Positions 7,189 to 49,133 of a DNA stretch of 64,000 bases are shown here, piece after piece. The DNA comes from Phycisphaerae bacterium. Its GTDB lineage: Bacteria > Planctomycetota > Phycisphaerae > UBA1845 > UTPLA1. Position 1 is the first letter of the stretch. Each line of letters opens with the position of its first letter. The translations under genes and the position numbers were made by a program. The DNA lies in NCBI GenBank assembly GCA_019636475.1, contig JAHBXN010000001.1:62001-126000 (forward strand). The letters are read 5' to 3'. The notes below the pieces were generated by a model. That model ran no database searches. It saw nothing but the letters and a program-made list of their open reading frames with translations, and was not told the DNA's origin.

Positions 7189-7893
7189 TCAGTCCGCGTC
7201 GTAACCGCGCGCTTCAGAATTGTCGATGATGCCGCTTGACCGCTTTACGGCATAGAATTCCACCCGGCGATTCTGGGCCTTGCCGGAAGTGGTGTTGCCG
7301 ACCTTCGGTCGATACTCGCTGCAGTTCGCCTGCACGAGATTTTCATTCGGAATGCCAAGATCACGCATCGATCGCACCACGGTCAGCGAGCGGGCCGCAC
7401 CAAGCTCCCAGTTGTCCTTCCACTTGCTCTTGCGAATCGGTTCGTTGTCCGTATGGCCGAAGACGTAGATATCGCGGTCGTTGTATCGCGAGCGAATGTC
7501 CGACGCGATCTTCGCGAGCGTCGACTTGCCCTGTGCCGTGAGTTCGGCACGACCCGATGCGAACAGCACATTGCCGGGAACTGAAATCATGTCGAACGAG
7601 GGCATCGTCACCCAGCCGTCGGCATTCTTGGCAACCTTGTCGCCGCCCGCGCGCATCTTCGCGATTTCCCGACTGAGTTCGTCGATTGACATGCGCGCTT
7701 CGTTCTCGCGAACAAGGGCGTCATTGAGCTGACGCTCGCGTTCGCCGAGTTCGCCTTTCAACTGCTGATTCTCCGCGGTCAGATCGGCGATTTTCTGGTC
7801 CTTCGCATCCGGACCGCAGCCGGTTCCGAGTAACGTGAGAGCGAGCGCGAGCGTGGTGATCGGGGTGACGACCCTGTGTGTCATCCGTGCCAT
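7189..7893 (-). CDS. OmpA-family peptidoglycan-binding lipoprotein (MotB/Pal-like)
   Basis: 234 residues from the ATG at 7893, which has GGAGG 8 bases upstream; the in-frame ATG at 7908 overlaps that ribosome site and is rejected. The signal peptide ends near GTGC, a loose lipobox, so the protein is probably lipidated on that Cys. Residues about 30-80 form a charged coiled coil (AENQQLKGELGERERQLND). The C-terminal OmpA domain has the conserved NVLFASGRAELT start, FGHTDNEPI with the diaminopimelate-binding Asp, and NRRVEF with its Arg. It should tether the outer envelope to peptidoglycan. A strong hairpin follows the gene. Confidence 0.9.
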   Translation of the reverse strand: MARMTHRVVTPITTLALALTLLGTGCGPDAKDQKIADLTAENQQLKGELGERERQLNDALVRENEARMSIDELSREIAKMRAGGDKVAKNADGWVTMPSFDMISVPGNVLFASGRAELTAQGKSTLAKIASDIRSRYNDRDIYVFGHTDNEPIRKSKWKDNWELGAARSLTVVRSMRDLGIPNENLVQANCSEYRPKVGNTTSGKAQNRRVEFYAVKRSSGIIDNSEARGYDAD

Positions 7894-8113
7894 GGCTGAA
7901 TCCTCCATCGTTGAAACATGCGCCGAATCGGTCGCATGCGCCGTGTACAGGCCGTTATTTGGTTGTCAAACTTCTTGCAGAGAAATAGCAGAAATTGCGC
8001 CTCAGGTCAACGGTTCAGGCGATTATTGCGCCGCTTCTGAGCACAACCTTGTGATTTGTTTCGCGTCGAACGATCACCCATGAGCCATTCTGACGCGGCT
8101 CATCAGCCGACTC

Positions 8114-35811: not shown

Positions 35812-36543
35812 ATGATTTCATCAATGGGGAGTCTAAGAAGCATGTTGAGAGTTGTTACCGCTGTCGCCGCGCTGGCGATCTTCACTTCATCGGCCGGTGC
35901 GGCCGACATCACCTTTTCCGCAACGGTCGGAACACGATCGGCGTCGGCGAAATTCGCCGTCTCCGGGAGTGACTTGATTGTGACACTCACCAATACGTCG
36001 AACCTGGATGCGATGGTTCCCGTCGACGTGTTGACGGCCGTGTTCTGGAATGTGTCCGGTACGCCGCTCACGCTCACGCGGGTGAGCGCGATTGTTCCGA
36101 ACGGGCACAGCGTGTTTTTCGGCCCGACTGATCCCGGCAACTCGGTCGGCGGCGAATGGGCCTACAAAAGCGGACTTTCGGGCCCAGGCAGCACTTCCTA
36201 CGGAATCAGTTCAGCCGGATTCGGCCTTTTCGCTCCGGGAGATCGCTTCCCTGGAAATGACCTGCAGCCACCGGCGTCCGTCAACGGCCTCGAATACGGA
36301 ATCACAACGGCCGGTGACAATCTGGCGACGGGTAACGCGCCGATGACGGGGGACAACGCCCTCATCAAGAATCAGGTGGTCTTTACGCTGAGCGGCCTGC
36401 CGGCCAACTTTGATCCTTCGACCGCGATCAACAATGTGCTCTTCCAATACGGCACTGATCTGGGTGAGCCGAGAATTCCCGAACCCGCCACTTTGAGTCT
36501 GATGGCTGTCAGTGCGGTCGCGCTTCTGCGCCGCCGACGTTGA
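35812..36543 (+). CDS. Exosortase-dependent (PEP-CTERM) surface protein, XDD-like
   Basis: 243 residues. Signal peptide about 8-30 (VVTAVAALAIFTSSAGAAD). The body begins ITFSATVGTRSASAKFAV and has LIVTLTNTSNLDAMVPVDVLTAVFW, the opening seen in the small XDD-type exosortase surface proteins. The C-terminus is a clean sorting signal: IPEPATLSL, a short hydrophobic helix and RRRR. It should be cut and attached to the surface by an exosortase, none of which is in the window. GGAGAG lies 6 bases before the ATG. A single-gene unit with its own leader hairpin and terminator. Confidence 0.85.
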   Translation: MISSMGSLRSMLRVVTAVAALAIFTSSAGAADITFSATVGTRSASAKFAVSGSDLIVTLTNTSNLDAMVPVDVLTAVFWNVSGTPLTLTRVSAIVPNGHSVFFGPTDPGNSVGGEWAYKSGLSGPGSTSYGISSAGFGLFAPGDRFPGNDLQPPASVNGLEYGITTAGDNLATGNAPMTGDNALIKNQVVFTLSGLPANFDPSTAINNVLFQYGTDLGEPRIPEPATLSLMAVSAVALLRRRR

Positions 36544-36570
36544 TCGCGTCGTTGAAAACCAGGTAATCCC

Positions 36571-36604
36571 AGAAGCCCTGAGGCGAATCTGCCTCGGGGC
36601 TTCT
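36571..36604. terminator. 14-bp terminator hairpin between convergent genes
   Basis: AGAAGCCCTGAGGC (36571-36584) pairs with 36591-36604 (13 Watson-Crick pairs and one G-T) over a 6-base loop. It touches the stop of the minus-strand glycosyltransferase gene and follows the surface protein gene by 27 bases, so it can serve both. Confidence 0.7.
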
Positions 36605-37891
36605 TCATTCGGGGATGCCAAGAATTGTCCGGACCGTCCGTCGCATCGCGTTCTTGAGATCGAAATCACGCCGGGCCCGATCGGCCGCAGCAGTACTGAA
36701 TCGGCGGTAGCGATCCCGGTCGGATATCAGCTTGCAGATGGCATCGGCACAGGCGGACGCATCGTCCCGAGGCACGACGAAGCCGGTTTCTCCATCGATG
36801 ACCGCCTCACGCATTCCGCCGACGTCCGCAACGACGCATGGAATTCCGCGAGCCATCGCCTCGATAACGGCATTGGACATCGATTCACGCCGCGACGGCT
36901 GAACGCAGATATCGACGCCGTCATACATCGCACCGTGCGAATCGACGAAGCCAGCAAAGTTGACTCGACTGGTCAAGCCGCGCTGAATCGCCCGGGACCG
37001 CAACTGCGGAATCAACTCACCATCGCCGAAATAGGTCAGACTCGCGCGCGGATGTCTCGCGGCGACAATTGAGAACGCATCGAGCATGACATCAGCGCCC
37101 TTGGCCTCAGTCACACGGCCGATGCTGGCGATGCGAGTGGGCGTATCGATGATGCAGTCCTGATTGGCGCTGAAACCGCCGTCAGTTTCCCCATTCGGAA
37201 TGACGATCCGGCGATTTGGCGGAAAGCCGTAGCTCGATTCGAACGCATCCGCCACTCGACTGCTGTTATAGATAACAGCGTGCGCGCAGAGCGCGGGTAG
37301 TCGCTTTCGCCAGATCAGTCGGCTTCGCCACGCGCTGGGCAGTGGAATCAAGCGGAACAGCCTTCGCCGCCGGTGCGCCGGGAGTGGCTCGGGCGACTGT
37401 CGTATCGACGTCACTACACGCATACCGAGGCTTCGCGCAGCCAGCAACGAGGCGACAAACGCCGCACCGCCCGCCTGCTGCACGGCGAATACCGTGTCTG
37501 CCCGAGCAGCCCGGAGCCACCGTCTACGATCGAGTATTAACGAGGCACGCAGCCTGTTATCACCGGCGATTCGTTCGTCGATCCATCCGGTATTCTCGAC
37601 GGTGAATCGCCGGGGATGATACGAATCGAGCAGTTCGTGGTAGATGGAACTTCCGGAGTAACCCACGTGGACGTCGGCCCCCGCGTCAAGTAGCGCGCGC
37701 ACGGCGCACAGAAGGTATTTCTCCGCCCCGCCTGTATATGTCCGCTCACCCACTCGAACATGATGCACCGCCAAGACTGCCACTCGCCGTCCTCGGGCTT
37801 CGGGCATTGGCGGAACGATCGGGGAAAGCGCCTGCTCGCACGCGTCGGGTTTCGAGTGGATCGGAATTGGCTGTTGGATCGTTGCGGGCAT
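36605..37891 (-). CDS. Glycosyltransferase, family 4/GT-B fold
   Basis: 428 residues from the ATG at 37891; the region before it in frame is arginine-rich and overlaps the neighbouring gene, so it is excluded, but the ribosome site of this start is weak. The N-terminal domain has HHVRVGERTYTGGAEKYLL, the acceptor-side Gly loop. The C-terminal domain has RIASIGRVTEAKGADVML and RRESMSNAVIEAMARGIPCVVADVGG (in outline), the E-x7-E nucleotide-sugar motif. A retaining enzyme for envelope or exopolysaccharide glycans. It lies 113 bases after a large secreted-protein gene. Confidence 0.9.
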   Translation of the reverse strand: MPATIQQPIPIHSKPDACEQALSPIVPPMPEARGRRVAVLAVHHVRVGERTYTGGAEKYLLCAVRALLDAGADVHVGYSGSSIYHELLDSYHPRRFTVENTGWIDERIAGDNRLRASLILDRRRWLRAARADTVFAVQQAGGAAFVASLLAARSLGMRVVTSIRQSPEPLPAHRRRRLFRLIPLPSAWRSRLIWRKRLPALCAHAVIYNSSRVADAFESSYGFPPNRRIVIPNGETDGGFSANQDCIIDTPTRIASIGRVTEAKGADVMLDAFSIVAARHPRASLTYFGDGELIPQLRSRAIQRGLTSRVNFAGFVDSHGAMYDGVDICVQPSRRESMSNAVIEAMARGIPCVVADVGGMREAVIDGETGFVVPRDDASACADAICKLISDRDRYRRFSTAAADRARRDFDLKNAMRRTVRTILGIPE

Positions 37892-38004
37892 TTCGAAGCG
37901 AAGGCGGCCGATCGGCGCGCGGCATCGCTTCAGACATATCGACCGAACACGAATCAGGAGTGCAGGTCCGAGAACCTCGCCGAAAGAGAGGCGCCCTTCA
38001 TCAA

Positions 38005-40647
38005 TCAACCGACCGGAGCAGCCGGCGGGCCGACCATAAACTCGTCCCATGAATTGGGAATGAACTTCCCAAAGGGCGAAAGGATGTCCTCTTCGTCGAC
38101 CGGAAGCGGCCTCCCGGCGTCGCCGAGACAAACGTCCATGACGAAAACACAGCCGAGAGATGGGACCTCTATCCAGCCAAGCACTCGATCAGCCGCGCCG
38201 GCGTCTGCAAATCGTTGTTTCGCCGAGCTGGATTCTCTCAGGATGACCGTGGCGGCCTCCATCGCCTCCGGCCGAACCAGGAGCAGATCGCGCGGAGCAT
38301 CGGGCGAGCCGCACCGAATCATGGCGAAATTCTCACGCGACCAATCGAGAATATTATTGAGCACAAAGTCCCGTACGCCGTCGTTGAGATAGTCGGCTAC
38401 CGGCCGGTAGTTGGCATCGGCCTTTCTGCCGGTCAGTTCGATGGCGACGTACGAAGCATCCGCACCGGTGGTTCGAATCGCCACCTCGGCGCCGGCGAGA
38501 TCTCGCAGTTCCCTTGCAGTCAATTTCGGGAGCAGACGCCGCGGATCGTCCTTCACATCGGACCACTTGTAATGTATGCCGGAACTGGGCGGAACTTGGC
38601 GCGGAACAACGTCTTTCACCGGCCGTTCGAAGACGCATGCGAGGCCCGGAATCGGCGTTTTCTGATCCGAAACCACGCTCACGGAGAAGCCCCACCCCCG
38701 ATTTTTCTCCGATGGTCGCGACGACACCACGAGCTCAAACTCGTTCCATCCTTCCTCGAGCGTTTCGCGTGTGAAGGCGGTATTGACCAAGTCGCGGCCC
38801 TCAAACTTTCCACCGACGATTGAGGGTGCGGCGATGACGCGTCGACCATTGATGGAGAGCGTTGCACGGTCGTTTCGGCCGAGCCGAATCCAAACGCTTT
38901 GGCGCTGCGGCGAAAAGACCCAGTTAGTGGCCTTGACGGTCGCCGCGCCGGCATCAGGGAATCGCGCAGCCAAATCGATGAAATCTGAAACGCTCACGAT
39001 CGGCGTGGACTTTGCTTCGGACGACTCTATCCAGTCGGTGTCGGCCGTCGCGCCAGGGCCGCGTGGAGTTGTCGGGATTGGGCCCTGAATGCTCCATAGT
39101 TTGAGGTAGGTCGCGGGCGTGGCCTCGTCAGCCGCACATAACCGCCGGAAATCACCCGGAAACAGTTCGTAACGCATCGCAGATCGAAATGCGGACGAGG
39201 CGAAGCGCATCGGCTGGAATCCGCAAGCCAGCGCGCCCGCCGGATCAGGCCAACCGGCCGTCTGCCCCGCCTCGGCGGCAGCGGAATAAAGCAGCGTGTA
39301 CATCGACCGCATGTGGGCAGTAAACGACGAATCGTGATAGAAGGAAGCGATACCCGCGCCATTCGGCCCCACATCGGTGAATCCGATATCCACCTGCTCG
39401 CGATTCTCGCCCTCGATTCGCGGCCGCACACAGAAGACCACATCAAACCACCCGCGCGCCTGAACGAAATCATCCGAGGGCCCGGTGACGCGTCCGAGAT
39501 GCCGTGTCATGGTTCCGGCATCTTCCTGATCGACCTCGAAGAATGTGAAGTTCAGGCGAAAGCAGCCGCGTGACGCCGCACATAACACACGGTCCAGCAC
39601 CGTGAATTGATCTTTGACACGAATCAGCTCCGCCTCATCCAGCGTCTTTGCGCCGCGCGACTTGACGATCACAACGACGGCGTTCCAGACCGACGGACTT
39701 TCCACGTAGGACATTTCGGCGGTGCGATTAAGGTACTGGACGACTTCGAGAAGGTCGCCGCCGGTTCGCTCCCGGGTCTCGCCCCCGCGATACTGACTCT
39801 CGACGTGACTGGGGTCGATGACTCGCGTTTCATCAAATTCGCTGAATGCGGCAGAAGCCAGTCCCGCGCACTGGAGATAGAGGCCCCAGCGGTAGTGCTC
39901 CATAATATTGCCGGACAGTTTATGCGGTCGATTGAGATATTCGATCATCCGCAGCCCGCGCCGAGCGAGCCGACCAAGCGGCGCATCGGATGAGGCCGCA
40001 AGCCTTCCATAGGCGGCGTATGCCGGTGCGATTTCTCCGGAGATCTCATGGCGAAGTGCGCCGAAATAATCCTTCAGTTCGGTCGACTCGACGGAGCTTA
40101 CCAGCCCATCGAGCGGCCCTTCGTAGCCAGCCACCGCCCCTTTGACGACTGTCATGAAATCCGGCATTGCGAGCACGGTGACCGCGACGGCCTCCGCTTC
40201 GCTTCGCAATTCGACTCGAAGTGAGAAATGATCCACCGCAAACGAGGGATTCCGCTTCAGGGTATCGTAACTAATAACGTAGGCGGTGCGTCGCGACGAG
40301 AGGCCCCACTCCGGCAATTCGCGTCCGCCGATGTCGAATTTCATCGACGCCTCGACCTGGCGTCCCGGCTTCGGCGGCGCGTACGGGTCGTAATCATCAT
40401 CGCCGACCAACGGGGCGGGACGAACCGCTTCGACAAATGGCTGTGCCGCAATCAGCACCAGCGACATTGGCGCGGGGCCGGTGGTTGTCTGCGCGAGCGG
40501 AAAGACCACATCGTGCCAACCCCGCTCAATTGCGAAGCTGCCCAAGGGCAGAGCACTGGTTTCTGAATTTCCCGCACCCCGGGCAGATTGCGTTCCCGCG
40601 GCAATGATGAGCATCGAGACGATGATCGCGAGTCTGAGTCCATTCAT
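38005..40647 (-). CDS. Large secreted protein of unknown function
   Basis: 880 residues from the ATG at 40647, preceded by GAAGGG and followed by a good signal peptide (LRLAIIVSMLIIAAGTQSARGAG). I do not recognise the family. A region near residues 630-740 (WIRLGRNDRATLSINGRRV, then EEGWNEFELVVSS) looks like a beta-sandwich carbohydrate-binding fold. Helical stretches around 200-330 resemble TPR-type repeats. It follows the ExbB-ExbD-TPR operon in the same direction after a 175-base gap. Confidence 0.7.
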   Translation of the reverse strand: MNGLRLAIIVSMLIIAAGTQSARGAGNSETSALPLGSFAIERGWHDVVFPLAQTTTGPAPMSLVLIAAQPFVEAVRPAPLVGDDDYDPYAPPKPGRQVEASMKFDIGGRELPEWGLSSRRTAYVISYDTLKRNPSFAVDHFSLRVELRSEAEAVAVTVLAMPDFMTVVKGAVAGYEGPLDGLVSSVESTELKDYFGALRHEISGEIAPAYAAYGRLAASSDAPLGRLARRGLRMIEYLNRPHKLSGNIMEHYRWGLYLQCAGLASAAFSEFDETRVIDPSHVESQYRGGETRERTGGDLLEVVQYLNRTAEMSYVESPSVWNAVVVIVKSRGAKTLDEAELIRVKDQFTVLDRVLCAASRGCFRLNFTFFEVDQEDAGTMTRHLGRVTGPSDDFVQARGWFDVVFCVRPRIEGENREQVDIGFTDVGPNGAGIASFYHDSSFTAHMRSMYTLLYSAAAEAGQTAGWPDPAGALACGFQPMRFASSAFRSAMRYELFPGDFRRLCAADEATPATYLKLWSIQGPIPTTPRGPGATADTDWIESSEAKSTPIVSVSDFIDLAARFPDAGAATVKATNWVFSPQRQSVWIRLGRNDRATLSINGRRVIAAPSIVGGKFEGRDLVNTAFTRETLEEGWNEFELVVSSRPSEKNRGWGFSVSVVSDQKTPIPGLACVFERPVKDVVPRQVPPSSGIHYKWSDVKDDPRRLLPKLTARELRDLAGAEVAIRTTGADASYVAIELTGRKADANYRPVADYLNDGVRDFVLNNILDWSRENFAMIRCGSPDAPRDLLLVRPEAMEAATVILRESSSAKQRFADAGAADRVLGWIEVPSLGCVFVMDVCLGDAGRPLPVDEEDILSPFGKFIPNSWDEFMVGPPAAPVG

Positions 40648-40822
40648 GCCTATGCGCCCTTCCCAATCGGTTTCGCGTGAGTTCAACTTCATTGAAATGA
40701 TGATAGAAGCACTGCGGGGTTGTGCCAAATGCACGCGTTCGTGACGCATGCTCACCTTTGATTTCTCGAACACCGGCCAGAGCCCCCTTCGGATTCAACT
40801 GGACGACCAAGGCTGAAGGACG

Positions 40823-41719
40823 TTACTCGTCTTTCCTTTTTCCGGTGTGCGCTGTCGGATCCTCCAACCATGCGAAATCGTCCTCTGCCGCTTCCGAAGT
40901 TCGGTTTCGGGCAAGCCCGGTCTCACCTGAATCCGCCGACCTCGTGAACCGACGCAGCACGATCCAGATGATGAAGAGTGCGCCAGTTGTTCCGGCGAGC
41001 CATCTGAGCAAGTCGTCCGAAGAAATCGGCGGCCCGGATACTTCCCCACCGGACCGATCGTCTTCCACGTTCAGGTACTTCGAGATGACGAGCGCGCCTG
41101 TCCCGTTCGACCCGCCCACGGTTTGAAACGACCGCACCTTGATGAAGAAGCCTCTCACCGACACGCGCGATCCAACGGGCACTTCACCCGGGTCGTCCGT
41201 CAGAATCACGGTCGTCACCGAACGCGACCCCTTTTCCGCCAATTCAACCTGGAAAAGCCGACCGACGCCCGGCCGATTCGGCACATCGAACCCGTGGGTA
41301 CGCAGAACCTCGCCGCGCAGGAAGAGCAGGTCGCCGCGGTAGTCGCTCGGTCTCTCAAGCAGGTTTCGCCACAACGCAGGTGTCTCGTCTGTCCTGGGCC
41401 GGTATCGATCGAGATCGGCATCGGCCCGAACGAATCGGCAATACCAGTAAAATGCGGGATCGTCGAACGAAAAGACATGGTCGCGAACCGCCGACAGCAG
41501 CCGTCGCCCATGTTCCAAATCGAGAGGTTCGTTTGAGTCGCTTCGTTCGTTATCGTTGCTGACGGCCGGCGAATCGAGCTCCGGAACGGTCGGCTGGGCG
41601 ACCGCCACCTCTACGAACGGCAGTATCGCGCCGAATACATGGCACAGAATCGCCGCGCGAAGCCGTTTGGAACGACTCCACCGAGGAAGGAAACACAACG
41701 GACGCAAACATTGAGTCAT
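40823..41719 (-). CDS. Anchored envelope protein of unknown function
   Basis: 298 residues. Signal or anchor segment at about 20-42 and a second membrane segment at about 240-258 (WLAGTTGALFIIWIVLRRF). Between them lies a small beta-rich domain (LFLRGEVLRTHGF, TTVILTDDPGEVPVGSRVSVRGFF) that may be an OB-fold. The tail is acidic and cytoplasmic if the first segment is cut. The ATG overlaps the stop of the TPR gene by four bases, so it belongs to the ExbB-ExbD operon. Confidence 0.7.
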   Translation of the reverse strand: MTQCLRPLCFLPRWSRSKRLRAAILCHVFGAILPFVEVAVAQPTVPELDSPAVSNDNERSDSNEPLDLEHGRRLLSAVRDHVFSFDDPAFYWYCRFVRADADLDRYRPRTDETPALWRNLLERPSDYRGDLLFLRGEVLRTHGFDVPNRPGVGRLFQVELAEKGSRSVTTVILTDDPGEVPVGSRVSVRGFFIKVRSFQTVGGSNGTGALVISKYLNVEDDRSGGEVSGPPISSDDLLRWLAGTTGALFIIWIVLRRFTRSADSGETGLARNRTSEAAEDDFAWLEDPTAHTGKRKDE

Positions 41720-44457
41720 GTGCCAGATGTCTCAGCGGTCTGGCGTGCCTCGTTGAGTAGTTCCAGGAGCAAGCCCTGCCAGGGCGGACCTCCCAAATCA
41801 GGATGCCATGCCTGCTCGGTCTGGATTCCCTTCATCACCTCCCGGGCTTCGCCACGCCGCAACCGATGACGCAGCCAATGATAGCGGGCTTCCCAATACT
41901 CGGACGGGGCGTTGTTTCGCAACTGTCCATCCTTCAGCAGGCGTTCCCACATCGCCTCAGCCGCGAGAAGCGCCGCATCTCGATCGGACGGCAGTGTCGC
42001 GGCAGCCATGCGCTCCCGCAGCCGCGCCGCCGCGATCAGATAGTTGCCATTCGACGGGTGCTTTGAAATGAGCGATTCCAGTTCCTGCATGGCATCGGCG
42101 TATCGATCGGCCTGGGCAAGCATGTTGGCCAGACTGAAACGCACGACCGAGACATGCCGGGCATATTCCGGCCGTGACGAGATCCAATCCAGTAAGTGCC
42201 GAATTGTCGGCACTGTTTCAGCCGCCATCTTTCGAGCGTCCGACGTTCGCCCGACTTTCGCCAGACGATTCACCTCGGCCTCCATTTCGGCGGCCAGACT
42301 CACCAGGACGGTGCCGAGTTCATCGGTCGAGTTGTTCTTGAGATATTCCTCAAGGACGCGATTGGCTTCCTTGATATCACCCAAAGCCTGAAGGCAGCGA
42401 ATCCGCAATCCCAAGACACGGGGACTGGGCCGGGCTTTCTCAAGCAATTCGAGCGCGCGGCGGTAGCCCCGGACGTCTTCGCTGATGAGCAGCGAACACG
42501 CGGCCAGGCGGGACTCCTCAATCCACGAAGCAATGGTCTGTTGGGGTGGCGCGGTAATTCCGGACGGTCGGCCGGATCCGCCAATAGTGGAAGTCACCGG
42601 TTCAGCGAGTTTCACAAGGTCGTCCATCAACCGGATCCAGCCGTCGACCGCTTCGCGCGCCACATCAATCTGCCGATCGGGTGCGGAATCGCGTGGTAAC
42701 GCCTCGTACAGCCGCTGCCTGCATCGTGCGGCGTTTCGTCGCGCTTGCCAATACTCCGCCGATGATTCCGGAATACGCCCGTAGGCGGCGGCGGCGCGGC
42801 GAAACTCGCCGCCCTCCTCCAGCGACAAGGCCGCAACCCATCGCGCCTCGGCAGCTTCGGGATGAGACGGCATCGCACTGGCAAGCAGATCCGCTGCTTC
42901 GGCAAGCTTCAAGTAATCGTCCCGGGCATGACTCGTCGTCACCAACTGGCGCCAGCAGCGATAGGCGTAGTCGCAGGCGCGTTCCTCAATCGCCCTAGGC
43001 GGCGACTGACGGGCCTCGTCCAGGAAGGTCTCGGCCGCCGCGCGAAGTTCCTTTTGCTGAAAAAGGCAGACGCCCAGATTGAATCTTGCTTCGTGATGAT
43101 GCGACGAGGCATCGGGCCGTTCGAGGAGCAATCGCCACGCCTTCTCGGCATTGGCAAATCGTTCCTCAGACATAGCCTCGGATGCGATGATCAGGATTTC
43201 GACATTCGAGAGCTGCTCGAGCGACCGCTGCCGCCCCGCCAGATCATCAAGATACACCTGCACCATTCGAGGCCAGGCGCCGCCCTTTGCCGCAAGGGAT
43301 TCAAAACCGCTTAGGGCATTTTTCTCTAACGCCTCACGGCGCGGATCCTCCTTCGGCAATGTTCGCGATTCGAGCACATAGGTGCGTGCACGAATGAGCG
43401 GGGCGATTCGCACATAGAACGACGCGCCGGCATCCTGCGGCCGGAGCTTTTCAACTGATCGGCCGGCGAGCCGATCCAACCGGCGGCGAGCATCCTCGAA
43501 CCGTTTTGCGCTAACCAGTGCCTTCGCAAGCTCAAACTCCGCCCGCGACGTCACGGCTAGTGACGCAGTCGAGTCGATCACACGCTCGAGCGCCGCGAGC
43601 GACTCTTGCAGGCGCCCGAGCTCGCGAAGCGCCACTCCCGCCCCAAGCAATGCGGCATACTTCTTGTCGGGATCGTTCGCGGTTCGGGAAGCCTGATCGA
43701 ACGCGGCGAGCGAATCTTCGAGCATCCTCGACCGGGCCGGGTCACTCATCGCCGAAATGGCGGCAAGATACACCTCCGTCCACGCCCGGTTCAGCCGCTG
43801 CTGCTTCAAGAGCAGGGGAATCTGGTCTGCGATTCCCAGCAGCAGATACTGTTCCTCGTTCGTACGAAGGCCGATGTCGAGATCTTCCAGAATCCGACCG
43901 GCCGCCAGATAGTAGTCGCGAGCCTCCTTCAAACGAGATGCCAGTCTATCGGCATCAAACTTAATGCCAGCGGTAATTTCAAACTGATCAAGATCGGCCG
44001 CGACTGAGTAACGCAGAATAAGATCGCCCAACTCGACTCTCCATTGAGCAATATCAAAGGAGCGACGCTCACCGCGCATCCAGCTCGGGTCGGTCGATAA
44101 TTGGATTACCCGACGATACTCTTCGATCGCACGGTTCAACAGCCGCTCTCGCACTTCCGCGGACTTCTCGGTGGCGGCGGCATGGGCAAATGCCCTGGCA
44201 ATGTAGACCCGGTGCATCACGGGCGCGTCGGCCAGCAATTCCTCAACCAGTTCCGGCATATCGCGCTGGATCAGTCCCACGACCAGGCGACGCTGATCGG
44301 AAGGCAGGCTGTCGTCCGGCTCGTCAGCCGCGCGCGCAGCCGAAGCACCAATGAGTAACAATGCAGCGGCCGTGATGGCGCGAAGAAACGGACCGAAGTC
44401 GGGCGTTGCGTGGAATCGCGTCGAACCGCATGAGTCAGGGTTTCGCAGCCTTTGCAT
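41716..44457 (-). CDS. Large secreted TPR-repeat protein
   Basis: 913 residues from the ATG at 44457, which overlaps the stop of exbD as TGATG. The signal peptide lies at about 25-43 (AITAAALLLIGASAARAAD). The rest is almost all helical TPR-like repeats, for example LGAGVALRELGRLQESLAALERVI, HHEARFNLGVCLFQQKELRAAAETF and FSLANMLAQADRYADAMQELESL (in outline). It probably works in the periplasm as a scaffold for the ExbB/ExbD motor complex encoded just upstream. Confidence 0.82.
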   Translation of the reverse strand: MQRLRNPDSCGSTRFHATPDFGPFLRAITAAALLLIGASAARAADEPDDSLPSDQRRLVVGLIQRDMPELVEELLADAPVMHRVYIARAFAHAAATEKSAEVRERLLNRAIEEYRRVIQLSTDPSWMRGERRSFDIAQWRVELGDLILRYSVAADLDQFEITAGIKFDADRLASRLKEARDYYLAAGRILEDLDIGLRTNEEQYLLLGIADQIPLLLKQQRLNRAWTEVYLAAISAMSDPARSRMLEDSLAAFDQASRTANDPDKKYAALLGAGVALRELGRLQESLAALERVIDSTASLAVTSRAEFELAKALVSAKRFEDARRRLDRLAGRSVEKLRPQDAGASFYVRIAPLIRARTYVLESRTLPKEDPRREALEKNALSGFESLAAKGGAWPRMVQVYLDDLAGRQRSLEQLSNVEILIIASEAMSEERFANAEKAWRLLLERPDASSHHHEARFNLGVCLFQQKELRAAAETFLDEARQSPPRAIEERACDYAYRCWRQLVTTSHARDDYLKLAEAADLLASAMPSHPEAAEARWVAALSLEEGGEFRRAAAAYGRIPESSAEYWQARRNAARCRQRLYEALPRDSAPDRQIDVAREAVDGWIRLMDDLVKLAEPVTSTIGGSGRPSGITAPPQQTIASWIEESRLAACSLLISEDVRGYRRALELLEKARPSPRVLGLRIRCLQALGDIKEANRVLEEYLKNNSTDELGTVLVSLAAEMEAEVNRLAKVGRTSDARKMAAETVPTIRHLLDWISSRPEYARHVSVVRFSLANMLAQADRYADAMQELESLISKHPSNGNYLIAAARLRERMAAATLPSDRDAALLAAEAMWERLLKDGQLRNNAPSEYWEARYHWLRHRLRRGEAREVMKGIQTEQAWHPDLGGPPWQGLLLELLNEARQTAETSGT

Positions 44458-44924
44458 CAGTTCACGTCGATCTTCACATTCGGATTCACGGCGAATTGGA
44501 TGTTTCCGAAGCCGGAGCGGACGCAGGCGTCCATCGCAGAGATCACGCACTGATACGGGACTCCCGGTTCGGATCCGATGAGGATGCGCCCCTGCGGATC
44601 CGCGCCAGCCTGAAGGCGTTCATGCAGAAGGGCCGCCAATGCGGCAAACGAATTTTCAGAAAGCTCGCGATCCATCAGGACGATGCGGCATCCCGGTGGC
44701 GATTCCTGCTCCATCAGGACGATCTGGACAATCGGCACGACTGACACCTGCGCGCCGCCGCCGGGGCCGACCTGCGAAGGCAACTCCGTCGGCAGGACGC
44801 CCTCAGACACGGTGACGCTCGTTCCCAGCATGAAGAAAATGAGAATCACCATGACGACGTCAACCATCGACGCGAGATTCGGTGCGTAGCTTGCGGTGAC
44901 AGGGAAACCGCGACGAGGCGTCAT
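44457..44924 (-). CDS. ExbD/TolR-type stator protein (second copy)
   Basis: 155 residues. One N-terminal membrane segment, LASMVDVVMVILIFFML, which holds the Asp expected to carry protons, then a periplasmic domain ending GNIQFAVNPNVKIDV. It overlaps the other exbD by four bases and the TPR gene by one, so all three are coupled. Confidence 0.9.
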   Translation of the reverse strand: MTPRRGFPVTASYAPNLASMVDVVMVILIFFMLGTSVTVSEGVLPTELPSQVGPGGGAQVSVVPIVQIVLMEQESPPGCRIVLMDRELSENSFAALAALLHERLQAGADPQGRILIGSEPGVPYQCVISAMDACVRSGFGNIQFAVNPNVKIDVN

Positions 44925-45367
44925 TGCGAGGTCTCCTCGCGCGGCACGGCGCTGAATGTGACTTTCTGAATTCCCGATTTCGCGCAGCCCAGCATGACCG
45001 CCTGCACATATTTATAGGGCAAACTTCGCTCGGCGCGGATGACGCAGTTCACCTCTCCGCGACGGGCGCGCTCGCGCTGAAGACGCTCAAGCAAACCGGA
45101 GAGCGTTGTCTCCTTTTCCTGCACAAGGTAGATCGCGCCATCGCCGCCGGTCGTTCGGGCATCGCGAATATTGATGACCAGCCGATCGCCGAGTTCCTTT
45201 CGTTCAACGGTTTTCGCGGAGACTGCAAGCGGCAGATCGATCGCACTGTTCTCGTTTTTCACCATCTCGGTTGTCAGCATGAAGAAAACCATCAGGCACA
45301 TGGTCACGTCGACCATTGAAGCCAGGTTGATCTTGACAGGAGTTGGTGGCGGTGGTGCTTTCATCAT
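44921..45367 (-). CDS. ExbD/TolR-type stator protein (first copy)
   Basis: 148 residues. The membrane segment NLASMVDVTMCLMVFFML carries the conserved Asp of ExbD/TolR, and the periplasmic part has RLVINIRDAR and SLPYKYVQAVMLGCAKSGIQKVTF (in outline). The gene starts 13 bases after the ExbB-like gene. Confidence 0.92.
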   Translation of the reverse strand: MMKAPPPPTPVKINLASMVDVTMCLMVFFMLTTEMVKNENSAIDLPLAVSAKTVERKELGDRLVINIRDARTTGGDGAIYLVQEKETTLSGLLERLQRERARRGEVNCVIRAERSLPYKYVQAVMLGCAKSGIQKVTFSAVPREETSQ

Positions 45368-45380
45368 CTCACTGCACTCG

Positions 45381-46280
45381 TCAATCCGCGAGCTGCACGG
45401 GTCCCGGCGGATTCAGCGGAGCCGCTGTGGGGCGCGGTACGGTCGATCCGGGAAGCGACCCTGTGAAAGGCCCGGCGGACACGGGAGCAGCGCCAGCCGG
45501 CGTTACGTTTCCAGCGATCGTCGATGCGCCCCCGGCTGCTGTGCCCGGCACCACCGGAGCCGGTCGGAAATACTCAAGAATATCGACCGACGAGGCATGG
45601 GCGGCGACCGTCAGCGAATCGACACGATTGCGACAGATTCCGAAGAAGAGCATCGACACGATCGCCACGATCAATCCGAGAAAGGTGCTTACGAGCGCAA
45701 GGCTGATTCCGCCGGCAAGATTGTCCGCCCCGTAGGCACCGGATCGCATCCGCTGAAAGGACTCGATCATGCCGATGACTGTGCCGAGCAGACCGAGCAG
45801 CGGGCAGATGTTGCCAATGATGTTCAGGTACTCCACGCGTCTGAACAAGCGGCTGCGCCACGCCATCGCGCGCTCCTCGACCGCCTCCTGCATCGCCTGA
45901 AAGCCGTGCCTTCCGTGTCGAAGGCCGACGGTCAGCACGTCGCCGAACATCGTCCTGCTCTTGCTGAGCTTCTCGATGCATTCCTTGAACTGTCGCCGCT
46001 CCACAAGTTCGCGGGTTTCCCTGACCTCCGCTTCCGAGATCATCGTCGATCGCCGAATCGTGAAGAAATGTTCAAAGATAATGATCGCCGACCAGAGGGA
46101 GATCAGGCCCATCACCGGCCCAAGCCAACCAGCGCCGGTCATCACGATCTGCAGGAAGGATGCCTGCGAATTTGCAGGCGCCTGATCGGCAGCCAGAACC
46201 GGCGTGGCAAACGATGCCACCAGCATCATTCCGGCAAGTGGCAATACGTGTCGGCGACCTGAGTCTGACACACACTTCAT
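45381..46280 (-). CDS. MotA/TolQ/ExbB-family proton channel protein
   Basis: 299 residues. A cleavable signal (LAGMMLVASFATPVLAAD) is followed by a membrane segment, a cytoplasmic helical region (ELVERRQFKECIEKLSKSRTMFG) and the conserved ExbB pair: NIIGNICPLLGLLGTVIGMIESF and ISLALVSTFLGLIVAIVSMLFFG (in outline). The Pro/Ala-rich tail after about 245 is unusual. With the two ExbD proteins it should convert proton-motive force into mechanical work across the periplasm; what it drives is not known. Confidence 0.92.
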   Translation of the reverse strand: MKCVSDSGRRHVLPLAGMMLVASFATPVLAADQAPANSQASFLQIVMTGAGWLGPVMGLISLWSAIIIFEHFFTIRRSTMISEAEVRETRELVERRQFKECIEKLSKSRTMFGDVLTVGLRHGRHGFQAMQEAVEERAMAWRSRLFRRVEYLNIIGNICPLLGLLGTVIGMIESFQRMRSGAYGADNLAGGISLALVSTFLGLIVAIVSMLFFGICRNRVDSLTVAAHASSVDILEYFRPAPVVPGTAAGGASTIAGNVTPAGAAPVSAGPFTGSLPGSTVPRPTAAPLNPPGPVQLAD

Positions 46281-46382
46281 AAGTTACTTCCTCAGTTTTG
46301 CATTAACTATTCGGCATCGATTCGCATTGCCGGCATCATCAGCCTGGCTGCATCGAGCGACCGCGCCTCGCGGCGGACCTGA

Positions 46383-47468
46383 CTATGACCGATTCACATC
46401 GGCCTGCGTTACATGTTTGAAGCTACCGCCGTTGGACTCGGCGATGGACCGCAGCACCCGCTCGCCCTTCCCCATCGTATCGTAAATGAACAGGATCGTG
46501 TTGACGATCGTCCGGTTGCCGCGGTTCCGCTGTTTGATCTGTGCGATAATTTTTTCGTTGTCCTCCCCGAAGTCACCGTCAGACAAGAGGAACATGATGT
46601 CCGGGCGGTATCCGAGCGCCTTGCGAATCGCGTCCAGCGGTTCGGTCTGTCCCTCGGGCACGACGCGTTTGATCGCATCAAACGCCGCACGCTTGTTTTC
46701 GGCTGTTGCCTGACGCAGCCGGGTGGACCATTCGGTTGCCTGGCCTTGATTGAACCAGATTACGTTGAACATCTGATCCGCGTCGAGCGCGCCGATTGCC
46801 CGCATCAGCTCGCGTTGCAGTGACGTGAATGTGTCGCTCATTGAGCCGCTACGGTCCATGACGTAAATGATGGAACGCGCCTGCTGGCCTTTTCCGACGC
46901 CCCACATTCCGCTGATCGGGCCGCCACCGGCCACGTCGCGATCGCCGAGCCCGCTGCCCTGGCCATCGCTCGAGCTCGCGACACCGACCGCGGCTCCCGT
47001 TCCAACAATATCGCCCTGCCTCAACTCCTCCACCGCGATCGAATTCAGGCCTGAACTCCCGACGTCAACGGCCTGAACCTGAAGTGACTTCTCATTCTTG
47101 AGCAGGCTCGACAGGTCCTGGATCACGTCGTCCGGGTCAGACTGCCCCGCTTGCCGAGAGTCCGGACGATCGAGGTTGGCCTTGCCTGGAAAGAGAAAAC
47201 TGCCTGTCTGCTCTGTTGCGGTGGTCTGGGCTACGACACGCGCTGTAAATTCACTGTTCATTCGGCTTGCGCCGACACCGGCCGCCCAACCGCTCAAGCT
47301 CAACAGGAAGACGAATAGCAGATGGCAAAGCAGGCTTAACCCGAATGGGCCGAGGTGATGAACAATTTCGGCTCCGAACGATCTTTCCAGTCCCGTTCCT
47401 GCACGGCGCGGCGCTGAGCGAGCGATGCGTCGTCCAGCCGGGGCAGGTTGGGCTGTTCGGGGGGGCAA
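46383..47468 (-). CDS. Membrane-anchored von Willebrand factor A domain protein
   Basis: 361 residues from a TTG at 47468, chosen because AAGGAG lies 8 bases upstream; the frame is open farther up with no better site. One membrane segment (LLCHLLFVFLLSLSGWAAGV) near residues 45-65 is followed by a Gly-rich linker (QGSGLGDRDVAGGGPISG) and a VWA domain with an intact metal site: YVMDRSGSMSDT, then a Thr-containing region, and LLSDGDFGED. It is upstream of the ExbB-like gene in the same direction (102-base gap) and is probably part of the same envelope machine. Confidence 0.83.
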   Translation of the reverse strand: MPPRTAQPAPAGRRIARSAPRRAGTGLERSFGAEIVHHLGPFGLSLLCHLLFVFLLSLSGWAAGVGASRMNSEFTARVVAQTTATEQTGSFLFPGKANLDRPDSRQAGQSDPDDVIQDLSSLLKNEKSLQVQAVDVGSSGLNSIAVEELRQGDIVGTGAAVGVASSSDGQGSGLGDRDVAGGGPISGMWGVGKGQQARSIIYVMDRSGSMSDTFTSLQRELMRAIGALDADQMFNVIWFNQGQATEWSTRLRQATAENKRAAFDAIKRVVPEGQTEPLDAIRKALGYRPDIMFLLSDGDFGEDNEKIIAQIKQRNRGNRTIVNTILFIYDTMGKGERVLRSIAESNGGSFKHVTQADVNRS

Positions 47469-47684
47469 TTGCGGGGCTCCTTCCACGGTGCGGCGACCGT
47501 GCGACCCGCCGGCGTGTCGCGTGGTATGCAAAAAACGGACGATACCGAATTATATCGGCCAACAGACGTCGTTCAACGAATCCCCCGCTGCGCGTCCAAT
47601 TCCATTCGACCGACGTCGCAGACGTGTCCTGGTCAGAGGCTCGGATGCACTCCAGAGACTCATATCACCACGTCCCGTAAGACT

Positions 47685-47713
47685 TTGACCCCACTCCGCG
47701 CGGATGGTAGGAT
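47685..47713 (+). promoter_or_regulatory. Promoter before the 47.7 kb secreted protein
   Basis: TTGACC (47685-47690), 17 bases, TAGGAT (47708-47713). Transcription would start about 47720, almost on the ATG at 47718, so either the message is leaderless or translation starts at a later ATG. Confidence 0.5.
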
Positions 47714-47717
47714 CTGA

Positions 47718-49133
47718 ATGAGGGGATTCAGGGGAATTTGGTCGTCGCTTGGGCAGTCGCAATTTCGGTTGGTGATCGACCGGAATAGCAGCATGCCTCA
47801 TACCGGACGGGTGACTGCAACCCAGTCGCCATCCCTCGCGTGTTTGAATGAGATCCCGCACCATCGGGGCGGCACTGCGTCCGAGATGACGCGGTGGGCA
47901 TTGCCGGGAAATCGGAGTCGGACCTTGGATCGCGCGATTCGGATTCTCATTTCCGCGCTGTTCTGCACGGGAATCGTGTCCACGGAGACGCTTCGCGCCG
48001 ACGATCTCGATCTTCCCGACGGAACCTCCTCAGTGGAGAAAACGGCCCAGTCGCAAGACACCGGTTCCGCACGTCAGCCCGGCAGGAATGACTCGCGGAC
48101 CGGCTCCGTCAGTCGGGCCTATGAAGCGCTCGACCGCGGTGAAGCGGATGCGGCCGCGGCAATCATTTCCGAGCGCGGGCTGAGCGTTTCCGCCGTCGAC
48201 CGGCATACGATCGAAGGTCGTATATCATTTCTGAAAGGTCGCCTTTCACCCGCGCGACGGTCACTTCAATCGGCCATCAAGCTGGATGCACGCCGGGCAG
48301 ATAATCACTACTGGCTTGGCCGGGTATATCAGTCTGACGGCGCCCATGCACTTGCGGTATCGAGCTTTCAGCGGGCCTACTCGCTGGGACTGGACAGCTG
48401 CGATCTGCACCTGAATTGGGCTCGCTCGCTCGATGCGTCTGATGTCGTGCTTGGAGAGGTGCGCCAAGAGCGCTGGAACACTGAATTTACCGTCACGCCG
48501 TCGATCGGGCAATTCGCATTTGACGGCATCGTCGCTCAGCATGTTCGCGGGCGACCTGATGTTGTGATCGTCGCCCCGCAACGCAGCGCGATCTACCAGA
48601 TCCATAGGGCGATCGCCGCCGATCCGAATCGTGCTGATGCGAAGTGTTTCGCCGGCGCGCTCTGGGCAAAGTTGAATCAGCATCGAATGTCCGTAGAGTT
48701 GATCGAATCGGCGCTTCGAGCGCTGAAGCCGACCGATCGCGCCCGAGGTCATGAAATCCTGGCGACCAGTTCGCTCGCTCTGGGTCGCCTCGATCGGTAT
48801 ATCGAGCATACGAAGGAACACATGCGCCTCTCGGGCGGCATTGATACCGGACGGCTGGCAGCCGCTTACGATGTCGCCGCCGACGAAGCATCGGCCCGCG
48901 GGCAATTGAAAAAGCAGATCGGCTACCTCACATTTGCAGCGGAATTGGACACGACTCCTCAGCGCCTGATTCGACTGGCTGATGCCCTGCTTCTGGCACA
49001 GCGTGCCGAGGACGCCCACCGCTATCTGACGGACGCACTCGAGAAACGACCTTCTCGCGCCGAGCGCGCGGAGATCAATCAGCGCCTCGCAAGGACCAGC
49101 TTCCTCACCGCACCCGAAAGCTCCCCCCCCTGA
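47718..49133 (+). CDS. Secreted TPR-like repeat protein
   Basis: 471 residues from the first ATG. A hydrophobic segment, IRILISALFCTGIVSTETLRAD, lies at about 74-95, so the later ATG at 47886 would give a normal signal peptide and 415 residues; neither start has a clear ribosome site. TPR-like helices follow: SRAYEALDRGEADAAAAII, ADNHYWLGRVYQSDGAHALAVSSFQRAYSLG (in outline) and ADAKCFAGALWAKLNQHRMSVELIESAL. Function unknown. Confidence 0.72.
   Translation: MRGFRGIWSSLGQSQFRLVIDRNSSMPHTGRVTATQSPSLACLNEIPHHRGGTASEMTRWALPGNRSRTLDRAIRILISALFCTGIVSTETLRADDLDLPDGTSSVEKTAQSQDTGSARQPGRNDSRTGSVSRAYEALDRGEADAAAAIISERGLSVSAVDRHTIEGRISFLKGRLSPARRSLQSAIKLDARRADNHYWLGRVYQSDGAHALAVSSFQRAYSLGLDSCDLHLNWARSLDASDVVLGEVRQERWNTEFTVTPSIGQFAFDGIVAQHVRGRPDVVIVAPQRSAIYQIHRAIAADPNRADAKCFAGALWAKLNQHRMSVELIESALRALKPTDRARGHEILATSSLALGRLDRYIEHTKEHMRLSGGIDTGRLAAAYDVAADEASARGQLKKQIGYLTFAAELDTTPQRLIRLADALLLAQRAEDAHRYLTDALEKRPSRAERAEINQRLARTSFLTAPESSPP

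Follow-up and report, generated by a model that had tools for sequence, protein, structure and literature searches.

A conserved ExbB/ExbD motor operon with a candidate vWA transducer arm in a Phycisphaerae bacterium

INTRODUCTION

What does a motor of the ExbB/ExbD family drive in a genome where neither TonB nor TolB is detected? The question is raised by a 64 000-nt stretch of DNA from a Phycisphaerae bacterium (Planctomycetota; assembly GCA_019636475.1, contig JAHBXN010000001.1, positions 62 001–126 000), the whole of which we call the window. Seven genes on its minus strand encode, in order, a vWA-domain protein (VWA), ExbB, two ExbD proteins (ExbD1 and ExbD2), a large TPR protein, an OB-like protein and a secreted protein.

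The Ton and Tol systems are the textbook routes that bring energy to the outer membrane. A first-pass annotation, made from the sequence of the window alone, had taken the locus for a possibly undescribed surface machine in which the motor is coupled to the TPR and OB-like proteins, VWA being the gene before it and the secreted protein the one behind. We find that the machine is real and conserved, that its core is already in print, and that its two extra genes, OB-like and secreted, are found only in the window's own family. Our reading, to which we give a probability of about 0.7, is that a proton-driven ExbB/ExbD1/ExbD2 motor drives the VWA protein, which replaces TonB/TolA, probably for envelope upkeep.

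RESULTS

The motor and the search for its partners

Open reading frames (ORFs) place the seven co-directional genes where the first-pass annotation had put them (Table 1), and Pfam confirms five of them, with E-values of 5.7e-28 for ExbB, 1.2e-21 and 3e-18 for the two ExbD proteins, 1.1e-13 for TPR and 2.9e-5 for VWA. The sequence bears out the tight junctions that the first-pass annotation had reported: ExbD1 and ExbD2 join at ATGA, ExbD2 and the TPR gene at TGATG. By coordinates the TPR and OB genes overlap by 4 bases.

The Thr ring and the proton-binding Asp of the known motors are retained. ExbB Thr167 and Thr199 align with the Thr148/Thr181 ring of Escherichia coli ExbB; both are kept in 66/66 ExbB proteins of vWA-type motors and in 21/21 of a second motor type described below. 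The proton-binding Asp of ExbD is kept in all 69 ExbD1 rows and all 64 ExbD2 rows. These residues suggest an intact proton path and activity of both ExbD types. The counts are those left after a length filter dropped L049 and L133 (ExbB) and L036, L058 and L168 (ExbD2); they also exclude L066, which repeats the gene of L172, and the one ExbD that L068 has, and the set holds the near-copy rows L037/L038, L047/L058 and L064/L065.

No other Ton or Tol part was found by profile. The genome (4.4 Mb, ~95% complete) matches ExbD nowhere else than in the two window proteins. The first-pass annotation had named a TonB or TolA gene using this motor as the finding that would speak against it; genome-wide searches gave no match to TonB_C (PF03544), TonB_2 (PF13103), Plug (PF07715) or TolB_N (PF04052), TolA being sought only through the two TonB profiles, and with 3 of 14 control genomes matching in these searches (1 of 14 for TonB_2). 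MotA_ExbB has one further match, on contig C5 near an OmpA-domain match, which suggests a MotA-MotB pair. The OmpA domain has three matches in the genome, none beside the operon; one is Pal-like, at 7189–7908 of the window (minus strand), with a lipobox-like start (LGTGCG). Apart from the window motor, no ExbBD-type motor was detected in this genome, and the window motor has no detectable Ton/Tol partner.

A defence system of the Zorya type was also considered and rejected: none of the seven proteins had a PADLOC hit at 0.001, and ZorA2 reached merely E 0.11 in NCBIfam.

VWA as the candidate arm

TonB and TolA dock onto their motors through a Ser-X3-His-X6-Leu-X3-Ser motif of the membrane helix, TonB Ser16 and His20 contacting ExbB Ser34 and Trp38 (PMC12215075, excerpts). 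The D-box of TonB follows a pattern of alternating hydrophobic and hydrophilic residues, then two hydrophobic residues (PMC10907165, excerpts). The first-pass annotation missed that VWA carries motifs resembling both of these, with which it seems more than a mere neighbour.

VWA has a single hydrophobic segment near its N-terminus, which holds the first three positions of the docking motif (Table 1); the fourth is Gly here, while most of the listed family members have Thr or Ser in that place. Ser45 and His49 are invariant in 24/24 aligned proteins, as are the residues D205, S207, S209 and D297 of the metal-binding face (MIDAS) of the vWA domain. The S-X3-H motif falls within the first 140 residues in 24 of 25 vWA relatives, the exception (L046) being cut at a contig end. 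When a hydrophobicity rule is applied, an S-X3-H helix is found in 63/66 vWA rows versus 4/409 background ORFs; L066 and L172 count one vWA gene twice, and the background leaves out the window VWA and one giant protein of the second motor type. On the side of the motor, the Ser aligned with the TonB-contacting Ser34 of ExbB is kept in 66/66, an alternative alignment shifting the helix by two residues. A D-box-like strand lies 23–26 residues past the His in 13/14 vWA proteins of the window's family (f1) and in 6/9 of a second family, f4. Judged by these motifs, VWA is the likely transducer in place of TonB/TolA. It was also considered as a TolR-like pore helix, which is ruled out, its helix having no Asp.

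Two tandem VWA genes stand before ExbB in 8 of the 50 named loci (L098, L099, L101, L102, L105, L106, L110 and L116).

Conservation of the module

The gene-neighbourhood survey that the first-pass annotation proposed finds the order VWA, ExbB, ExbD1, ExbD2, TPR on one strand in 43 of the 56 related genomes examined. The profiles were partly built from the same loci, so that this count, like those of the tandem VWA genes and of the phylum loci below, stands for one-strand order within ≤20 kb and not for significance. As far as profiles can tell, neither this survey nor the search for Ton and Tol parts refuted the first-pass annotation. Together with the window's own genome and four that lack a tandem ExbD pair (G012, G044, G053 and G057), these make up a set of 61 (the window's genome and 60 relatives), in which an ExbD match is present in 58 and a tandem ExbD pair in 56, the rule for pairs having missed G030, where the two ExbD genes are 1.3 kb apart. 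The pair is the sole ExbD in 26 genomes, 20 of which have no Plug protein. The TPR protein taken alone is found in 38/61.

For the wider phylum, 20 loci were hand-picked from the best listed vWA hits, with preference for hits extending to the N-terminus; G108 was among those omitted. Eleven have ExbB and two ExbD genes on the strand of the vWA gene, and L140 has ExbB and one ExbD; S-X3-H is seen in 19/20 of the vWA proteins. Across 119 genomes of the phylum the vWA profile hits 99, mostly by the vWA domain alone, which is uninformative on the motor, and the TPR profile is too diverged, reaching 34 with partial matches in all but the window's own.

A number of these results weigh against our reading. 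The full order is missing in 13 of the 56 genomes. In five of the 13 the locus stops at a contig edge (G040, G041, G042, G056 and G060); in two the TPR gene is elsewhere (G019, G029), five have no VWA or TPR hit beside the motor (G033, G038, G045, G049, G052), and in G003, where the ExbD pair lies at a contig edge, neither ExbB nor VWA is hit upstream of it. Six genomes in which the tandem pair is the sole ExbD do have a Plug protein, so that in these genomes the pair may have a Ton-like function as well. No motor gene is seen near the vWA gene in 8 of the 20 phylum loci, among them L128, a 5.5 kb contig with a TPR gene before the vWA gene. The D-box-like strand is present overall in just 21/66 vWA proteins, with 6.3 expected from shuffled sequences, so coupling must differ outside f1 and f4. 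Of the other ExbB positions compared with E. coli, Trp38, the second TonB contact, is kept in 0/66, Pro190 in 41/66 and Glu176 in 4/66; contact details are therefore unlike those of E. coli.

Six vWA proteins with S-X3-H (L124, L126, L129, L130, L136 and L139) have no motor gene within ~8 kb, and it is possible that such proteins are arms on a distant motor.

The layout upstream of the motor varies. A VWA-ExbB gap of more than 600 bases is confined to loci outside f1 and f4, 31 in all, and 28 of the 31 hold an ORF of >200 amino acids (aa) there, 22 of which resemble ten or more of the set (for example L151:9239-10315 and L060:5716-6834); Pfam identifies the one that was checked (358 aa) as a TPR protein. 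In the f4 locus L054:14365-16090, DUF1844 lies directly before VWA and the next gene is Lgt (prolipoprotein diacylglyceryl transferase); L049, L053 and L055 have ORFs alike in size and by BLAST similarity at the same place, and L047 has the first of the two. This Lgt neighbourhood points weakly to lipoproteins or the outer membrane.

The TPR, OB-like and secreted proteins

The first-pass annotation had counted all three as parts of the machine. The TPR protein retains that place by its conserved order; a search of PDB sequences with it gave no meaningful match. The OB-like and secreted proteins do not: among the fetched loci the OB gene is found in 11 genomes and the secreted gene in 10, all of the window's family (15 genomes examined), and we therefore regard them as accessories rather than core. 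One genome, G009, has neither, and its contig continues. We found no mention of either gene in the open-licence literature searched.

Pfam and NCBIfam have no family for the window OB-like or secreted protein; DUF6203 appears at 0.00082 at best in 4 of 11 OB rows, the window protein not among them. The designation OB-like is borne out by a predicted OB fold at residues 101–223 (best Foldseek E-value 1.3e-5; overall pLDDT 72.9), and the model aligns to VIA with Z 9.0 over 99 residues at a root mean square deviation (rmsd) of 3.1. An Asp-Phe-x-Trp motif (DFxW) in the C-terminal tail is invariant in 11/11 proteins (the window's and ten relatives'). The tail is presumably cytoplasmic, and DFxW is a possible docking motif.

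The secreted protein is poorly modelled (pLDDT 65.4). Its residues 500–675 align, in this low-confidence model, with an anti-sigma-factor-domain protein (Z 10.7), GH2 sandwiches (Z 10.5) and PA14 chains (Z 9.8, rmsd 3.6, 146 residues aligned), scores which tie, and Pfam gives no PA14 match. The modelled sandwich hints at sugar binding. A metalloprotease, raised by one ADAMTS row at residues 317–508, was rejected as the sequence has no HExxH.

Comparison with known systems

The core of the locus is not undescribed, as the first-pass annotation had supposed. Inner-membrane vWA proteins with an SHLS motif are reported in Planctomycetes and the PVC group as proposed force transducers, encoded close to a TPR gene, a tolQ-like gene and a pair of tolR-like genes that differ from each other, with the function stated to be unknown, and the authors modelled the same kind of assembly (PMC12204202, Mol Biol Evol 2025, excerpts). 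Like those systems, the window has a single N-terminal SHLS-type helix, a tolQ-like gene, two tolR-like genes and a TPR gene; unlike them it has vWA first, whereas the published systems have it after the TPR and motor genes. The OB and secreted genes are additions of the window's family, and the excerpts of PMC12204202 make no mention of them. The window core is, by its sequence, a putative vWA force-transducer system of this kind, every testable feature being present. A further family from the same excerpts, TPH-vWA, has no ExbD and carries the proton-binding Asp in its helix, whereas the window has two ExbD proteins and a VWA helix without Asp.

With TonB-ExbBD the window shares the motor family, the Thr ring, the Asp, the S-X3-H-X6-L helix and the D-box-like strand; it differs in having two different ExbD proteins and a vWA domain, in a genome without a TonB C-terminal or plug match. 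With Tol-Pal (TolQRA-TolB-Pal-CpoB) it shares the motor family and a TPR partner, and the Pal-like OmpA-domain protein already mentioned is a possible counterpart of Pal; it differs in that no TolB is found by profile and a vWA domain stands where TolA has its own C-terminal domain. In the main text of PVC essential-gene papers we found no ExbB, TolQ or Tol-Pal.

The AglRQS/Glt gliding machinery of Myxococcus has one TolQ-like and two TolR-like subunits, and its wider system includes a vWA protein, CglB, which is an outer-membrane adhesin. The window motor might by this likeness pull a vWA adhesion system in a surface adhesion or gliding machine, as AglRQS does with CglB, and the sandwich of the secreted protein, a fold able to bind sugars, would suit such a machine. 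The window VWA, however, is predicted to be anchored in the inner membrane and would not be a secreted adhesin, and a tandem ExbD pair in nearly all genomes of the order is more in keeping with housekeeping than with a specialised behaviour. The excerpts of PMC12204202 name AglRQS and a vWA protein of gliding, and raise gliding as a possibility; for the window we consider it unlikely.

A second motor operon in relatives

Of the 56 genomes with a tandem ExbD pair, 30 match ExbD at another place too. A control set of 20 such loci (L174–L193) took 19 from these 30 genomes and one from the pairless G044. All 20 have a large TPR gene, ExbB and a single ExbD in that order with no vWA hit, and in all 20 the gene after ExbD encodes a protein with an internal S-X3-H helix (L181 is cut). 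L068 is a further case found by chance. The protein, ~1000–1500 aa long, combines a PD40 propeller and the S-X3-H membrane helix with C-terminal domains and a long linker rich in Pro and Ala. Six of the sequences were read; Pfam run on two of these giants places PD40 before the helix and a carboxypeptidase-regulatory-like domain near the end, with a squalene-hopene-cyclase-like domain in one. The D-box-like strand is present in just 7/20 of them, 3.9 being expected by shuffling. An ExbB tree, which contains four long branches (L133 being the worst), sets the motor types apart; support for the split is moderate (77/80). The window genome, with no further ExbD, does not have this second motor.

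Since most ExbB/ExbD operons examined in the order thus come with one S-X3-H protein, the second motor supports VWA as the arm. It also bears on another explanation, in which vWA is a folding or assembly factor rather than a force arm, while the motor works on the TPR protein by way of ExbD. The TPR gene does accompany the vWA-less motor throughout the control set and may be a general partner, and some vWA genes lie away from any motor gene. Against this stand the S-X3-H protein that follows ExbD in every control locus and the invariant Ser and His of vWA, and we think the explanation quite improbable.

No description of the motor with the PD40 giant was found in the literature, in a search limited to open-licence papers, and it points to a possibly undescribed motor type.

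Neighbouring features

Features of the locus are listed in Table 1. A glycosyltransferase gene, which the first-pass annotation had missed, continues the operon's direction downstream; we do not claim that it belongs to the motor. Beyond it, the protein at 35812–36543 (plus strand) has the C-terminal tail PEPATLSLMAVSAVALLRRRR, which we take to be of a PEP-CTERM-like sorting type. In front of VWA sits a divergent TPR gene of 471 aa (by Pfam). The promoter-like site should be read with the 5 consensus matches found on both strands of 36500–48200, where 2.7 are expected.

Table 1. Coordinates of features at the motor locus, in positions of the window
Feature	Position	Strand	Details
vWA transducer candidate (VWA), 361 aa	46383..47468	-	Pfam VWA, 24-row alignment
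VWA start codon	47468	-	TTG; start codon uncertain, frame open up to 47531
VWA membrane helix, S45-X3-H49-X6-L56	47280..47348	-	Position 60 (fourth motif position) is Gly
D-box-like strand FTARVVA, VWA residues 74–80	47229..47249	-	25 residues past H49
ExbB/TolQ-type proton channel subunit, 299 aa	45381..46280	-	Pfam, alignment to E. coli ExbB
ExbD1, 148 aa	44921..45367	-	Asp20 in transpore helix
ExbD2, 155 aa	44457..44924	-	Asp22 in transpore helix; distinct from ExbD1
Large TPR protein, 913 aa	41716..44457	-	Start ATG 44457; signal-like N-terminal segment
OB-fold protein (predicted)	40823..41719	-	N-terminus signal-like; membrane helix at the C-terminal end; DFxW invariant in the short tail
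Secreted protein, 880 aa	38005..40647	-	Residues ~500–675: GH2/PA14-like beta-sandwich (low-confidence model)
Glycosyltransferase (group 1)	36605..38131	-	Downstream; recurring neighbour within the window's family
Promoter-like site upstream of VWA	47549..47576	-	Consensus match alone

DISCUSSION

In the mechanism that we propose, ExbB and the two ExbD proteins would form a 5:2-type motor in the inner membrane, a ring of ExbB round a heterodimeric ExbD1/ExbD2 pair, powered by protons. The membrane helix of VWA would dock on ExbB by its Ser-X3-His face, the periplasmic domains of the ExbD pair would capture the D-box-like strand behind that helix, and a flexible linker would take the vWA domain into the periplasm. 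There its MIDAS face may grip a partner, for which the large TPR protein is the nearest candidate. The pulling would probably serve general envelope upkeep or remodelling, as that of Tol-Pal does. Three observations make such a general role more likely to us than a specialised behaviour: the module is found nearly throughout the order, Ton/Tol parts are undetected, and this is the sole ExbBD-type motor detected.

An ordinary Ton/Tol energy module with its TonB or TolA elsewhere in the genome would agree with ExbB and ExbD as true family members, and is rejected as extremely improbable given the lack of any TonB_C, TonB_2, Plug or TolB_N match in a nearly complete genome.

For a motor that drives a vWA arm, the conserved Ser-His pair, the Thr ring and the two Asp residues are strict residue-level predictions, and targets for point mutants in relatives that carry the module. 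A genome with a single ExbBD-type motor and no detectable TonB, TolB or plug receptors is a clear setting in which to ask what the vWA arm pulls. As a speculation that we hold only tentatively and think more doubtful than the mechanism above, the Ton/Tol role in Phycisphaera-like planctomycetes may have been taken by interchangeable motors, each consisting of an S-X3-H arm plus a TPR protein. One kind would have a vWA arm and paired ExbD proteins, the other a single ExbD and, as its arm, the C-terminal half of a giant protein that also has a TolB-like PD40 propeller, and the vWA motor would then be the outer-membrane maintenance engine of the order, working through metal-gated gripping.

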